Origin: Chromatiales bacterium
GTDB lineage: Bacteria; Pseudomonadota; Gammaproteobacteria; SZUA-152
Assembly (NCBI GenBank): GCA_026982475.1
Contig: JALSHB010000170.1
Location: 1-48,584, forward strand
Length of the DNA stretch: 48,584 nucleotides
Direction of reading: 5' to 3'
This document shows positions 12,111 to 48,493 of the stretch, piece by piece (the stretch's first letter is position 1; each line of letters opens with the position of its first letter). The notes under the pieces are model-generated. The model ran no database searches and had not been told where the DNA came from. It saw nothing but the letters and a program-made list of their open reading frames with translations. The translations under genes and the position numbers were made by a program.

Positions 12111-15100
12111 ATGAGCAAACACCTCTTTTCCGGTCACACAGCACGTTTGGCTGTGCCGTCACTGCTGGCCGGGCTCTACGCCACCACCGGCCTTGCGGGC
12201 CCCCTGAACCTTTCCGACAACGCCCTGGAAGTCGTCGTGGGCGTGGAACCCAACATCATGATCGTCAATGACGATTCCGGCAGCATGGACTGGGAAGTGA
12301 TGTCCACGGACTATGATCACGGCGGCCTCTTCACCGGCACCCAGCCGGACGGCAGCAGCCCGGCCGGCTCCGGCACCGTCAAACACCGCGACAGCGACGA
12401 TGACGGCATTGCCGACTGCGGTTTCAACAGCGGCACCTTCCACGGCTACCTCTACATCGTCGAATTCGGCAGCAACACCTACGGCGACAATGCCCAGGAC
12501 TGCAACACCGCCGACGACGAGGCCTGGCGCATCCGCAACAGCGACTTCAACCCCATGTATTTCGACCCCAACAAGGTCTACCTGCCGTGGGAGGGGGTCG
12601 ACATCAACGGCAATCCCTATGGCGACATCGACATCACCAACGCCCCCGACAATCCCTACGACCCCCAGGAATTCATCGACCTGACCCGCCACAACTCCAA
12701 CTGGGGCGGCGGCACCACGCGCTTCGAAAGCGACCGCGACGGCGATGGCCAGCCCGATGGCTTCCGCTATTACACCTGGCAGGATCTCGACGGCGACGGC
12801 CTGTTCGATGACGGCGAGGAAACCGAACACAAGATCCGCGACAAGAATCCCGCCATTCAACAGAATTTCGCCAACTGGTTCAGCTACTACCGCAAGCGCG
12901 ACCTGACCGCCAAGGCCGCCTTCAGCGCCGCCGTCAAACCGGCGGAAACGGCGCGCATCGGCTACGCCACCATCAACAACAACGCCAACAACCGCATCCG
13001 CGTGGCCTCCATGAACGTCTCGCCCGCCAGCGGCAACAAACGCGCCCTGCTGGACGAGCTGTTTCAGACCCGTCCCAACAATGGCACGCCCCTGCGCCGC
13101 GCGCTGCGCGACACGGGGCGCTACTTCGACTGCGCCGCCGGCGACATCTTCGATTCCGGCTCCGCCTCCTCCCCCGGCAGCAGCAATTGCCCGGTGCTCT
13201 CCAGCAGCGACGGCGGCCAGTGCCAGCAGAACTACACCATCCTGATGACGGACGGCTTCTGGAATGGCGGCACGCCGGGGGTCGGCAATACCGACAACGG
13301 CAGCGGCGACTTCGACGGCGGCGCCTATGCCGATGGCTTCAGCAACACCCTGGCCGATGTCGCCATGCACTATTACGAAACCGACCTGCATTCCCTGGCC
13401 AACGAGGTACCCACCACCCTGCGCGACATTTCCGGTTACCTGGGTACCACCTCGCCGTTTGAAACCATGCATCAGCACATGGCCACCTACACCGTCGGTT
13501 TTGGCGTCACCGGCAGCATCACGGCCGATCCCACGGACCCCGCGCTCCCCTTCAACTGGCCCGACGCCGCCGCGACCAATGCAGGAAAGATCGACGACCT
13601 GCGCCACGCCGCCTATAACGGCCGCGGCCAGTTCCTCAGCGCCAATGACCCCGTTGGCCTGGCCACGGCCATGAAGGACATCTTCACCGACATCGCCAAG
13701 TCCACCGGCACCGCCACCGCCGTCGCCTTCAACACCCAGGAAGTCGGCCTAGGCAGCCTGGTGTTCCGCGCCTCCTTCAACACCAAGACCAACAAGGGTG
13801 ACCTCGTCGCGCACGCCTTGCGCACGGACCCCGTCACCAAGAAGATTGAAGTCGACCCGGCAATCACCTGGAGCGCGGCGCAACAGCTGGATGCCAAGAC
13901 CGCCAGCAGTTCCGACACCCGCACCATCATCACCTACAAGGACACCGGCACCAACACCAGCGAAGGCATCCCCTTCCGCTGGAACAACCTGACCAGCGGC
14001 AGCGGCAGCCAGCAGGAAGCACTGAACGACCCCCAGCCGGCCAATGTTTCCGCCTCGACAAACACCTTTGGTGACGAGCGCCTGGGCTATCTGCGCGGTC
14101 ACAGCGTGGACGAAGGCGACAGCGCGGCCGATGGCGAATTCCGCGAGCGCTCGGCGATTGCCGGCAAGCTGGGAGACATCGTGCATTCCACGCCCGTGTT
14201 TGTTGGCAAGCCACGGTCTTATGGCCGCTATGGCGGCGCCTATCCGCAGACCCCGGGCACGACTTACGCCGAGTTCATGACCGCCTATGAAAACCGCCAG
14301 CAATTGGCCTATGTGGGCGCCAACGACGGCATGCTGCACGCCTTCGACACCAACACCGGCAGCGAATTGTTCGCCTACGTACCTGGCACGATGTTCAGCA
14401 AGTTGTCGAACCTCACCGACCCCGACTACACCCACGAGTTCTTCGTCGACCTTACCGTCTCCGTCAACGATGTCTTCATGACCCCCACCACCGGCGGCAC
14501 CAACAGCGGCAGTCTGAGCTGGAACACCCTGCTGATCGGCGGCCTCGGCGCCGGCGGCAAGGGCTATTACGCCCTCAACGTCACCGACCCGGCAGACCTG
14601 GACACCGAGAACGAGGCCAGGCACAACGTCCTCTGGGAATTCACCGAGGCCGACGACGGCGGCATCGGCAGCAGCGACCTGGGCTTCACCTTCAGCCAGC
14701 CCCTGATCGACATGAGCAACGTCACCGACGGCAGCGGCAACCAGAAATGGATAGCCGTCTTCGGCAATGGCTACAACAGCACCAGCGCCGATGGCGATGC
14801 GACCCTCTATGTCCTCTTTATCGAAGGCGGCCAGGACGGCGTATGGACCATCGACAGCGACTACATCAAGATCAGCACCGGCAACGGCAAGGCCGAAAGC
14901 GCCGATGGCTCGACACCCAACGGCATCGGCGGCGTGCGCGGCGTCGACATCGACGGCAATGGCACCCTCGACTACGTCTACGCCGGCGACCTGCAGGGCA
15001 ACCTGTACCGCTTCGACCTCACCGGCACCAGCCTGTCTTCCTGGAAGAACACACCGAAAACCATCTTCCAGGCGCGCTATGACCCGCTCGGCAGCAAAGA

Positions 15101-15851
15101 CATTCAGCCCATCACCACCAAGCCCATCGTGGTTCCGCACCCCACCGACAGTGGCCTCATCGTCATTGCCGCCACCGGCAGCTGGATGACCACCGACGAC
15201 GCCACCAGCACGGACATCCAGTCCATCTATGGCATCTGGGACGACCTTTCCAGCAATCCGCTGGTCACCGTCGAGAGCGGTACCAACCAGCTGGTGGAGC
15301 AGGTATTCATCAACGAAATCGACAAGGAACACGGCTATACCGTGCGCACCCTCACCAACAACCCCATCAACTGGAACAATACCGGCTCACCGGCAAACAA
15401 GGTCAAGGGCTGGTACATCGACCTCGACATGCCCGCCGCCAACACCAGCAGCCCGGTGGAATATCCCGGCGAGCGCGCGGTGCGCAATCTGCAGGTGCGC
15501 GGCAGCCTGCTGTTCGTCAACACCATCATTCCGCGCCCCACCAACGCCTGCAGCATTGGCGCCGGCGGCTACGAACTGGGCTTCAACCCCTACACCGGCG
15601 GTTCCGGCAGCAAGGTCATCTTCGACCTCAATGGCGACCAGAACTTCAGCGAACTGGACAACGCCGACGATACGGCGGGAGACGCCAACATCGTCACCGG
15701 CATCCGCTTCGACGCCGGCACCCCCACGGACTCGGCATTCATCGGCAACCAGCGCATGACGCAGGCAGACGATGACATCCGCAGCTTCGGCACCAACACC
15801 GATGGCAACGAGGGAATAGGCCGAACCTCGTGGCGGGAAATCATCAACTAG
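12111..15851 (+). CDS. pilY1: PilY1-type pilus tip adhesin with von Willebrand A-like N-terminus, operon 1
   Basis: 1246 residues. ATG at 12111 has GGAG seven bases upstream and opens a signal peptide cleaved near GLAG; an ATG at 12069 would add 14 residues. A MIDAS-like DxSxS (D54, S56, S58) begins a VWA-like region. Asp-rich thrombospondin-type-3-like runs (DSDDDGIAD, DRDGDGQPD, DLDGDGLFD) lie at about residues 95-245. The C-terminal half is the PilY1 beta-propeller with the signature DIDGNG...YAGDLQGN from residue 946, the calcium site region. PilY1 sits at the pilus tip and controls extension, adhesion and surface sensing. Its TAG stop is part of a CTAG that flanks an inserted element. 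Confidence 0.95.
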   Translation: MSKHLFSGHTARLAVPSLLAGLYATTGLAGPLNLSDNALEVVVGVEPNIMIVNDDSGSMDWEVMSTDYDHGGLFTGTQPDGSSPAGSGTVKHRDSDDDGIADCGFNSGTFHGYLYIVEFGSNTYGDNAQDCNTADDEAWRIRNSDFNPMYFDPNKVYLPWEGVDINGNPYGDIDITNAPDNPYDPQEFIDLTRHNSNWGGGTTRFESDRDGDGQPDGFRYYTWQDLDGDGLFDDGEETEHKIRDKNPAIQQNFANWFSYYRKRDLTAKAAFSAAVKPAETARIGYATINNNANNRIRVASMNVSPASGNKRALLDELFQTRPNNGTPLRRALRDTGRYFDCAAGDIFDSGSASSPGSSNCPVLSSSDGGQCQQNYTILMTDGFWNGGTPGVGNTDNGSGDFDGGAYADGFSNTLADVAMHYYETDLHSLANEVPTTLRDISGYLGTTSPFETMHQHMATYTVGFGVTGSITADPTDPALPFNWPDAAATNAGKIDDLRHAAYNGRGQFLSANDPVGLATAMKDIFTDIAKSTGTATAVAFNTQEVGLGSLVFRASFNTKTNKGDLVAHALRTDPVTKKIEVDPAITWSAAQQLDAKTASSSDTRTIITYKDTGTNTSEGIPFRWNNLTSGSGSQQEALNDPQPANVSASTNTFGDERLGYLRGHSVDEGDSAADGEFRERSAIAGKLGDIVHSTPVFVGKPRSYGRYGGAYPQTPGTTYAEFMTAYENRQQLAYVGANDGMLHAFDTNTGSELFAYVPGTMFSKLSNLTDPDYTHEFFVDLTVSVNDVFMTPTTGGTNSGSLSWNTLLIGGLGAGGKGYYALNVTDPADLDTENEARHNVLWEFTEADDGGIGSSDLGFTFSQPLIDMSNVTDGSGNQKWIAVFGNGYNSTSADGDATLYVLFIEGGQDGVWTIDSDYIKISTGNGKAESADGSTPNGIGGVRGVDIDGNGTLDYVYAGDLQGNLYRFDLTGTSLSSWKNTPKTIFQARYDPLGSKDIQPITTKPIVVPHPTDSGLIVIAATGSWMTTDDATSTDIQSIYGIWDDLSSNPLVTVESGTNQLVEQVFINEIDKEHGYTVRTLTNNPINWNNTGSPANKVKGWYIDLDMPAANTSSPVEYPGERAVRNLQVRGSLLFVNTIIPRPTNACSIGAGGYELGFNPYTGGSGSKVIFDLNGDQNFSELDNADDTAGDANIVTGIRFDAGTPTDSAFIGNQRMTQADDDIRSFGTNTDGNEGIGRTSWREIIN

Positions 15852-45921: not shown

Positions 45922-46206
45922 TCATTCACGCACAGGTGGCCACTGGCGGGCGGTATGGACCAATACCAGTATCCACACTGTTTCGTGCTCGATCTCATAC
46001 ACAAGACGATAGTTCTCGTGTGGGATTAGCTCAAGGGTGCCCGGGATCTTTCCCTGATGGCCAAGCATGGGGTGTGCCACCAGTCGGGCCGCCGCCGCGC
46101 TGAACAGTTCATCCATTCTAACCGCTGCTTGCGGGTTTTCGGCGACGAGGTAATCCCAAATATCGGCGCGATCTTGTTGCGCTTCTGGCGTCCAAATAAC
46201 CCTCAC
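45922..46206 (-). CDS. RelE/ParE-family toxin
   Basis: 94 residues. The pattern VIWTPEAQQDRADIWDYLVAENP, GHQGKIPGTLEL and NYRLVYEIEHETVWILVLVHTARQWP is that of the RelE/ParE superfamily; residues near the end (HTARQWPP) match the ParE-like C-terminal form. Target (gyrase or mRNA) cannot be told. Its start overlaps the antitoxin stop by 4 nt (ATGA). Confidence 0.9.
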   Translation of the reverse strand: MRVIWTPEAQQDRADIWDYLVAENPQAAVRMDELFSAAAARLVAHPMLGHQGKIPGTLELIPHENYRLVYEIEHETVWILVLVHTARQWPPVRE

Positions 46207-46478
46207 GCCCGACGCGACACCTTGGCGCGTCGCGCGGCAAAGTCAGCTTCTACCTCATCGTTCAGGCATCCCCGTCCGGAGTGCATTGATTTCCGGCCGG
46301 CTTCAACCTTGCGCTGCAAGTAGTCCTCATACTCGGCGGCTTCGTGCTGCTGACGCACAAAGTCGCGCATGAAGTCGCGCAGAAGCTGTGCGCTGGTACG
46401 GTCGCGCGCCTTGGCGGTCGTCGCGAATTCGTCTTTCAGGGCCTGGTCGACTCGAAAAGTGAAGGTTGCATCGCTCAT
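46203..46478 (-). CDS. ribbon-helix-helix antitoxin of the RelE/ParE pair
   Basis: 91 residues from ATG 46478 with GAGGAC upstream; a longer start at 46520 is less likely. The N-terminal TFTFRVDQALKDEFATTAKARDRTSAQLLRDFM is a ribbon-helix-helix DNA-binding domain and the rest is a charged toxin-binding tail. It lies upstream of the toxin and should repress its own operon. Confidence 0.88.
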   Translation of the reverse strand: MSDATFTFRVDQALKDEFATTAKARDRTSAQLLRDFMRDFVRQQHEAAEYEDYLQRKVEAGRKSMHSGRGCLNDEVEADFAARRAKVSRRA

Positions 46479-46586
46479 GGCGCTGTCCTCGCGTGTTACT
46501 CGATAATTACAGGATAGCACATCAAGGAGGACTGGTCACTTTCTGACCAGGACCGCCATCACTGGCCGGGTGTGGTGCGCCGACGC

Positions 46587-46721: not shown

Positions 46722-47750
46722 TCAGTCAGTTTCAGGCACTATCGTTACCGTTCCGCCGCCTTTTATCGTCCAGCCTGAAAGGCCCTGAGAGAAATCGTTG
46801 TTGTCGATATCCGATGGGTCGCCAATACCCCTCACCTCGATGGTGACCGCCGAATCCATCCCACCTATGAGCGCAGCGGAGCCAAACTCATTCGCGGCCG
46901 TCGTAGCCTCGATGATCACTGTGCGCGAGGGCAGATTGAGCGCTTGGTAAACGCCGCCTTGGGCCTCCGCATCCACGCCAACCGCCTTGTCGTCCGCCAG
47001 GCGCAGCTTCAGATTGGCCGTTACCGATTGCCCTGATTCGTTGACTACGCTGATATAGGCTGAATGACTGCCCGCCCACAGGGTGATGCCGAACGTCAAC
47101 TGGTTGTTATTGCTGTCGTTAGCGTAAACGACAATTTCATTTCGGCCATCCACGAGTAGATTCGGGGCAGTGATGGACCCGGGTTCGACAATCAGTGACT
47201 TGACGAGGTTTTCGTTGCGCAGAAAGGTGACTTCATTGGCACCGAGCGAGAATTGCGCACCGCTGACGGTCAGTACCACGTCGGTACCGACGGGGTACAG
47301 CTTTCCTTCTCTCAACGCTGTGGAGATATGTCCGCTTGAAAGGGACTCATCGTCGTCACTGGGCGGGCCGTCGACGATGATATCTCCAGTGAACGCCCAG
47401 GACAGCGCGTCCGGGTCAAATGAGATACGCCGATCCACCCGCAAGATGATCGTATCGTCGCTGGTCACGGCAACACCGCCTGGCAGGTCGCCAATGTCGA
47501 CTCGATCATCAATGGGCAGAATCGAACCGGCAGAACTGCTCACCACACCGACCACGTTTCTGGCGCCAGGGCCAGCGTTGCTGAAACCGACGCGGTAGAC
47601 ATAGTCGAAGGTCGACCGGCCTGCCCGCGCCTTGCTTACCAACTCCATCGATGTTGCCTCAATGCCGGTGAGGGTTTCGGCGTGGGCCGGGGTACAAAGC
47701 CAGGAAAACACGGCCAACAGCACAAGGCCCTTCAGTCGCATGCCGTTCAT
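46722..47750 (-). CDS. secreted protein of unknown function, probably C-terminally truncated
   Basis: 342 residues. A signal peptide (cleaved near AHAE) is followed by beta-rich, Asp/Gly/Ser-rich sequence: an N-terminal segment with TSMELVSKARAGRSTFDYVYRVGF, an IPT/Ig-like segment (about 155-230) and another about 230-300. The last 30 residues, IDNNDFSQGLSGWTIKGGG, are the opening of a carbohydrate-binding-like jelly roll that would normally continue for over 100 residues; here a TGA stops it. GGAGG lies six bases upstream and the start overlaps the preceding PEP-CTERM gene (ATGA), so the two form one unit. Confidence 0.6.
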   Translation of the reverse strand: MNGMRLKGLVLLAVFSWLCTPAHAETLTGIEATSMELVSKARAGRSTFDYVYRVGFSNAGPGARNVVGVVSSSAGSILPIDDRVDIGDLPGGVAVTSDDTIILRVDRRISFDPDALSWAFTGDIIVDGPPSDDDESLSSGHISTALREGKLYPVGTDVVLTVSGAQFSLGANEVTFLRNENLVKSLIVEPGSITAPNLLVDGRNEIVVYANDSNNNQLTFGITLWAGSHSAYISVVNESGQSVTANLKLRLADDKAVGVDAEAQGGVYQALNLPSRTVIIEATTAANEFGSAALIGGMDSAVTIEVRGIGDPSDIDNNDFSQGLSGWTIKGGGTVTIVPETD

Positions 47751-48296
47751 TTCACACCTCCTGTGGCGAACAAGCCTTTCAGGCCGGACTTCCTCGAGAC
47801 TTTTGTCGACAAGGCGATGCCGACAAGGCCAAATGCCAGCAAGGCCAACGGCGCAGGCTCGGAAATCGCAACGGTCTGCAGGGTGGTCTGGCCAGAGTCC
47901 AGGATGGTAAACGTGACGGGATCGACAACCTCGAAAGACTGGAGCATGGATGCGCTCCCACCCAACCAGCCAAAACTGACGACAAACCCACCCTGCGAGT
48001 CACCGCTGGCAATTCCCGAGGTCAGCGTCAGGGCGTCATAGAGGCCGTTATCGGGAATGCTTGGGTCAGGCTGGAGGACGAGCGGATCCCACCCTGAAGG
48101 CGTTGAAACCGCCGAAATGTTTTCATAGAGGTTGAGGTCGAACCAGATGGTGAAGCTCAACGAGTCATTTTCTATCGCGTACTCCGCCTGCCAGGTGTTG
48201 CCGGAGAGATTCGTCAAGTCAGTGCTGACGAGGGTCGCCTGAGCCGAGAAAGGAAACAGGAGCGAGAAGGCTGGCCAATAGATATCGATTCTTCAT
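47747..48296 (-). pseudogene. PEP-CTERM-type secreted protein with a frameshift in the signal peptide
   Basis: From ATG 48296, which has AAGGA eight bases upstream, the frame reads MKNRYLLASLLAPV and stops soon after. The mature part (QATLVSTDLTNLSGNTW onward, to 47747) lies in the next frame and begins with LLFPFSAQAT, the natural end of the same signal peptide. Joining the two gives MKNRYLLASLLA+LLFPFSAQA, so two bases seem missing around 48258-48262. The C-terminus has a PEP-CTERM-type sort signal: SEPAPLALLAFGLVGIALS then basic residues. A sequencing error is an alternative to true decay. Confidence 0.7.
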
Positions 48297-48493
48297 TTGT
48301 CATTCCTTTGAAATAGTCGATGGAACGGATAAAAACCTGTGAAGGTCCATCCTGCAATCCGTAGCACAAGAAGATACTTGTACACTATTGACGTTTTGGC
48401 AAGCTGCGAATAACACCTTCAGGCCAATATTGAACCTGAGTCGCAAGCGGCGATGGATTAACATGGGATCTGCGTCATGCGTGCGCCCATCAT

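Follow-up and report, generated by a model that had tools for sequence, protein, structure and literature searches.

A small gene for a putative PEP-CTERM surface protein lies close to the end of a gammaproteobacterial contig with its signal peptide divided between two reading frames, which raises the question whether the gene has been broken in the genome, is switched or recoded, or merely appears broken owing to an error of sequencing or assembly. The window considered here is the whole of this contig (C170, 48,584 bases), one of the 224 contigs of a 3.0 Mb genome. Elsewhere in the window, minor pilin genes of type IV pili were observed by eye in two sets between 9315 and 23443, each set accompanied by a long PilY1-like gene (by eye; 1260 and 1141 codons).

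A first-pass annotation of the window had described a gene at 47747-48296 on the minus strand, and both the coordinates and the strand are correct; the frame break was confirmed in the sequence. The first frame (48219..48296, minus strand) begins with an ATG at 48296-48294, comprises 25 codons (MKNRYLLASLLAPVSFLGSGDPRQH) and ends with a stop codon at 48221-48219; it contains the start and the first half of the signal peptide, followed by out-of-frame residues. The start is preceded, as had been claimed, by a Shine-Dalgarno-like AAGGA (48304..48308, minus strand, by eye), 7 bases 5' of the ATG. The second frame (47747..48262, minus strand) carries LLFPFSAQA, the second half of the signal peptide, ahead of the mature beta-sandwich domain, a PEP-CTERM-like tail and a TGA stop codon, and continues after a cleavage site placed by eye as TLVSTDLTNLSGNTWQ... 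It is open from 48292 to its stop codon at 47749-47747, with 171 codons counted from 48262 and no further stop within these past the break. No ATG, GTG or TTG occurs in the second frame upstream of the mature part, the first being a TTG at 48217 that already lies inside it. Thus, the signal peptide of the window copy, as distinct from that of an exosortase substrate, is not in frame with the mature protein. Since the second frame aligns with relatives in other genomes (see below) and is the only open frame 3' of the signal peptide (no stop codons, against seven and seven in the other two), the break is more than a chance juxtaposition of open frames.

The annotation had proposed that the loss of one CT unit, at 48255-48265, would explain the break. 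Both frames are open from about 48292 to 48222, and the frame change, equivalent to one base modulo three, falls within 48257..48293 (minus strand). When codon usage was scored after training on 25 genes taken from contig C170, a shift immediately after codon 2 scored best and the CT site lies 9.7 natural-log units lower, whereas the signal-peptide character (basic start and leucine-rich core, by eye) favours a later change, at the place originally proposed; as the two disagree, only the range 48293-48257 is given here. Only the size of the displacement modulo three can be derived from the sequence, and both a loss and a gain of bases fit. A two-base CT loss is one among several changes that fit, pinned neither to 48255-48265 nor to a CT unit; as the unique cause it is unsupported, since a change anywhere in about 48293-48257 fits.

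Relatives of the protein were sought among 40 relatives, 24 genomes of the family, 369 genomes of the class and GTDB genome contigs. The 20 rows retained correspond to 18 distinct loci, L003 and L004 duplicating the contigs of L056 and L061 and being counted once; other class-level matches, which were weak (E 5e-6 or worse) and mostly C-terminal, were left out. Comparison with homologues, suggested by the annotation as a check, showed all 18 related loci to be unbroken between start and mature domain, with start codon, signal-peptide-like stretch (by eye) and mature domain in one frame; this includes L027, the frame of which is ended further on by the end of its contig. The second frame of the window copy aligns with 18 sequences from 17 of these loci at 31-51% identity (19 sequences with the window copy; L060 contributes two and L027 is omitted). 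A second genome of the species was not found in the search. Matches to the family occur in four of the 24 genomes of the taxonomic family, its own included, that in G019 being weak and C-terminal only, and among the six other genomes of the genus a match is present only in G004.

The sorting tail proposed for the second frame is present as a PEP-CTERM-like tail (SEPAPLALL..., 47807..47866, minus strand) that scores below the Pfam cut-off for exosortase substrates (PF07589, 16.2 bits against 20.7), and among Pfam and NCBIfam models none reaches its cut-off on the window copy. At E-values up to 0.1, the PEP-CTERM motif is found in 11 of the 14 family members scanned, the window copy included, which together with the single frame of all the relatives upholds the description of a PEP-CTERM gene with a break in the signal peptide. 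Apart from three weak Pfam matches, each seen once, the models matched by the 14 members are tail models (PEP-CTERM and similar) or families named as PEP-CTERM or exosortase-dependent, and hence the mature domain seems to be without a curated model. The relative L051 is predicted to form a beta-sandwich with a helix at either end of the chain (mean pLDDT 86.6), and the prediction for the second frame of the window copy has a like strand order at lower confidence (74.5), the two models having been compared without superposition. The best structural match of L051 is YcnI (Z 12.1, 2.9 A over 114 residues), followed by one unnamed Ig-like protein and then by cohesin and CBM2/CBM3 modules (cohesin-like and CBM2, Z 9.8). 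The folds of YcnI, cohesin and CBM2/CBM3 resemble that predicted for L051, yet sequence identity is 6-15%; a named function was rejected, since what is shared is a common beta-sandwich only, and a shared fold shows no function.

The genome retains an exosortase (C172:23645-24397 of the same assembly; 248.8 bits, model positions 2-254 of 254, no stop codon) and the regulator PrsR (model positions 1-445 of 445, 718 bits). All five other PEP-CTERM genes over the cut-off have an in-frame N-terminal signal-like stretch (by eye). According to Haft et al. (2006; PMC1569441), most PEP-CTERM genes form single-gene operons and a sigma-54 box lies upstream of 99 of 167 proteobacterial genes. The window gene resembles the PEP-CTERM/exosortase substrates described there in its signal peptide, model-less mature domain and C-terminal tail and in the presence of an exosortase and PrsR in the genome, and differs in its split frames, lower-scoring tail, paired gene and lack of a detected sigma-54 box. 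It resembles the flocculation PEP-CTERM protein PepA (NF033554; PMC9850573) in being small; the match is weak, confined to the second half and, at 14.9 bits, far under the NF033554 cut-off of 80 bits, and the window gene differs further in having no detected RpoN box and in being broken.

The composition and the upstream region of the gene were examined for further signs of its condition. Sites of the -24/-12 type were scored against a sigma-54 consensus that we presume to be the standard one. In the 288 bases upstream of the window gene the best site scored 8 of 12, a value reached by 147 of 200 shuffles, so that the box, which is not required of exosortase substrates, was not detected there. 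Among the five sister PEP-CTERM genes, two have a perfect site upstream (12/12) and one scores 10/12. Scores of at least 10 were obtained in the relatives L051, L053, L057 and L060 (in L060 the site lies 248 bases from the start); as the remaining nine of the 13 relatives reach no more than 9, the missing site is weak evidence of decay. The GC content of the gene is 56.5%, against 63.3% for the contig, and its mean codon score is 0.016, the 25 contig genes having a median of 0.44 and a range of -0.24 to 0.60; the low values are as compatible with foreign origin or weak expression as with decay.

The gene is followed by a partner (46722..47750, minus strand; 342 codons) with a signal-peptide-like start (by eye), the start codon of which overlaps the stop codon of the PEP-CTERM gene as ATGA (47750-47747) and which has a Shine-Dalgarno-like AGGAGGT of its own 5' of 47750 (by eye). 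The N-terminal domain of the partner is the conserved neighbour domain of the family to which the small protein belongs. Using a profile built from six partner proteins, this domain was found in the gene directly downstream (same strand, starting within about 620 bases) at 13 of the 17 loci where the sequence extends past the gene, including eight that had not supplied seeds. An unbroken pair is present, for example, at the Thalassomonas locus L054. At three of the 13 loci a single open frame encodes both the small protein and the partner (L023:1483-3507, L025:1366-3519 and the second copy of L060, 4514-8410), the fusions in L023 and L025 carrying in their middle a PEP-CTERM-like tail together with another signal-peptide-like stretch. 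The neighbour domain lies upstream instead in L052 and in another gene about 3.3 kb further on in L058 (E 4e-10), and it was not found in L026 and L062. For this domain, six partner proteins gave no Pfam match over a cut-off, and the C-terminal parts of the partners vary, including what we take to be multicopper oxidase-like (L023), cadherin/Ig-like (L025) and FG-GAP-like (L061) parts. The similarity between the window partner and that of L055 is N-terminal only. A truncation of the window partner, suspected from its abrupt end, is not demonstrable, as its C-terminal part has no relative in the 368 other genomes of the class. A toxin-antitoxin-like pair (RelE/ParD-like, by eye) at 45922-46520 on the minus strand adjoins the 3' end of the partner.

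The gene is probably a recently formed pseudogene within a patch of gene remnants, its frame being broken where the relatives are in one frame. Of the three explanations offered by the annotation (a slippage switch, true decay or an error), true decay is the best supported because remnant genes lie alongside and the window copy has a gap of its own. This five-residue gap, with its junction at 48154..48155 (minus strand) around an xxIEE(F) motif, is unique to the window copy among the 19 aligned sequences, a few relatives having a one-residue gap there. The missing residues correspond to positions 50-54 of the L051 model, the loop and the start of a strand after the second strand, a placement in the predicted structure where their loss may be tolerated. 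At columns at least 70% conserved, the window copy departs at 15 of 53 (28%; relatives 4-40%); at columns at least 80% conserved it departs at 10 of 34, a share exceeded by one of 18 relatives (range 0-37%), and at columns at least 90% conserved at two of 16, which is not unusual (relatives 0-29%). Its end branch (0.48) equals the median in a tree that is poorly resolved. Substitution load was, therefore, set aside as proof of decay; with no further stop codon, a median branch and departures within the range of the relatives, the mature domain shows no firm sign of long decay, and any loss of function would be recent.

Further damaged genes were identified on a contig that shares its end with the window. 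The last 127 bases of C170 (48458..48584) are identical to the end of contig C135, the overlap being exactly 127 bases and no longer, as an assembly with k=127 leaves; hence, C170 and C135 are probably contiguous in the genome, and the assembly was probably made from short reads by a de Bruijn method with k=127. The 3' end of a gene remnant that we take to be DUF5131/phage Gp37-like (48494..48584, minus strand) continues on C135 and is cut off there at its 5' side, where a 21-base repeat (GGGTAGCGTCCCCTTTTTCCC) occurs twice, 27 bases apart (L067:3726 and 3753). Beyond this remnant and the short repeat preceding it lies a sigma-54 activator gene that is divided between two frames (C135:14496-15077 and 15065-15286), about 1.2 kb from the window gene if C135 adjoins. 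Its region corresponds to L067:2368-3566 (C135:14367-15565), the break falls at a run of seven C and the remaining frame has no receiver domain. A minus-strand frame with its first codons antisense to the activator remnant was also observed (L067:2076-2582); it has no NCBIfam match at E-values up to 1e-6 and may represent two truncated genes joined. The break at the seven-C run could itself be an error. Since the patch holds several damaged genes, real decay is favoured over a single read error.

An intact gene into which the contig has introduced a small insertion or deletion is unlikely, while being the most serious of the alternatives. The species is represented by one assembly and the contig ends about 300 bases away from the site, both of which count against a pseudogene; the median branch and the absence of further stops would also be expected of an intact gene, and the seven-C run at which the nearby activator breaks is a typical place for errors. 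Against this, homopolymers of five or more bases are absent from the gene, the probable short-read assembly would rarely make indels outside homopolymers, and the neighbouring remnants look truncated beyond a mere shift of frame. As a control, 20 well-known genes of the contig were chosen by us, and 18 of them match a curated NCBIfam model above its cut-off along 90% or more of the model, the other two, which are PilS- and PilR-like, having no model above the cut-off; contig C170 is, therefore, not generally indel-ridden. The error proposed by the annotation is thus possible and is not favoured, and the change would be a real one in the DNA.

It is very improbable that an exported protein is made from the gene as it stands through a +1 frameshift in translation or through initiation at a rare codon of the second frame. 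The mature frame is preserved, both frames are open over some 70 bases, and the second frame is favoured by codon usage from very near the beginning. However, the split arrangement is seen in none of the 18 relatives examined, where a programmed frameshift would be conserved, the second frame has no ATG, GTG or TTG before 48217, and neither a prfB-type stop codon nor an internal Shine-Dalgarno sequence was recognised by eye at the site. A literature search for PEP-CTERM proteins paired with frameshifts found no paper. That the break is reversible or read through, toggling the surface protein between exported and unmade states without the usual long repeat, is considered equally far-fetched. 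The weakest proposal, a slippage on/off switch of the surface protein, hardly deserves credence: phase-variation switches do occur in the signal peptides of surface proteins in other systems, the break falls in such a signal peptide and the overlap at which the contig ends could reflect variants, but the site has no tandem repeat (the sole dinucleotide run of at least three units in the gene lies outside it, at 48204, and CTCT/AGAG, with its two units, is found at 135 places in the contig), and in the 18 relatives the first 100 bases hold no dinucleotide or trinucleotide run of more than three units and no single-base run longer than seven T (L023, L061), for which reason the switch was rejected. 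A literature search on PEP-CTERM proteins and phase variation yielded a single paper.

For the favoured reading of a recent pseudogene, the following course of events is proposed. The ancestral gene would have encoded a small exported protein made up of a signal peptide, a beta-sandwich domain and an exosortase-type tail, and would have overlapped the gene for a second protein that is also exported. The frame would then have been moved by one base through an indel in the first dozen or so codons, so that translation from the normal start would now stop after 25 codons. The mature part would be left without a usable start supplying a signal peptide, and no protein would be expected to reach the membrane or the exosortase; having lost its signal peptide, any product should be unable to enter the exosortase path as modelled by Haft et al. 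(2006).

As it stands, the gene is of little consequence, being a further accessory surface gene that is broken while the genome retains its exosortase system. What the analysis yields besides is a family of PEP-CTERM proteins with a beta-sandwich fold and seemingly no curated model of its own. Its members mostly stand ahead of a second, unnamed surface domain, with which they are in some cases fused, and the pairing of the two could represent a two-part surface module.
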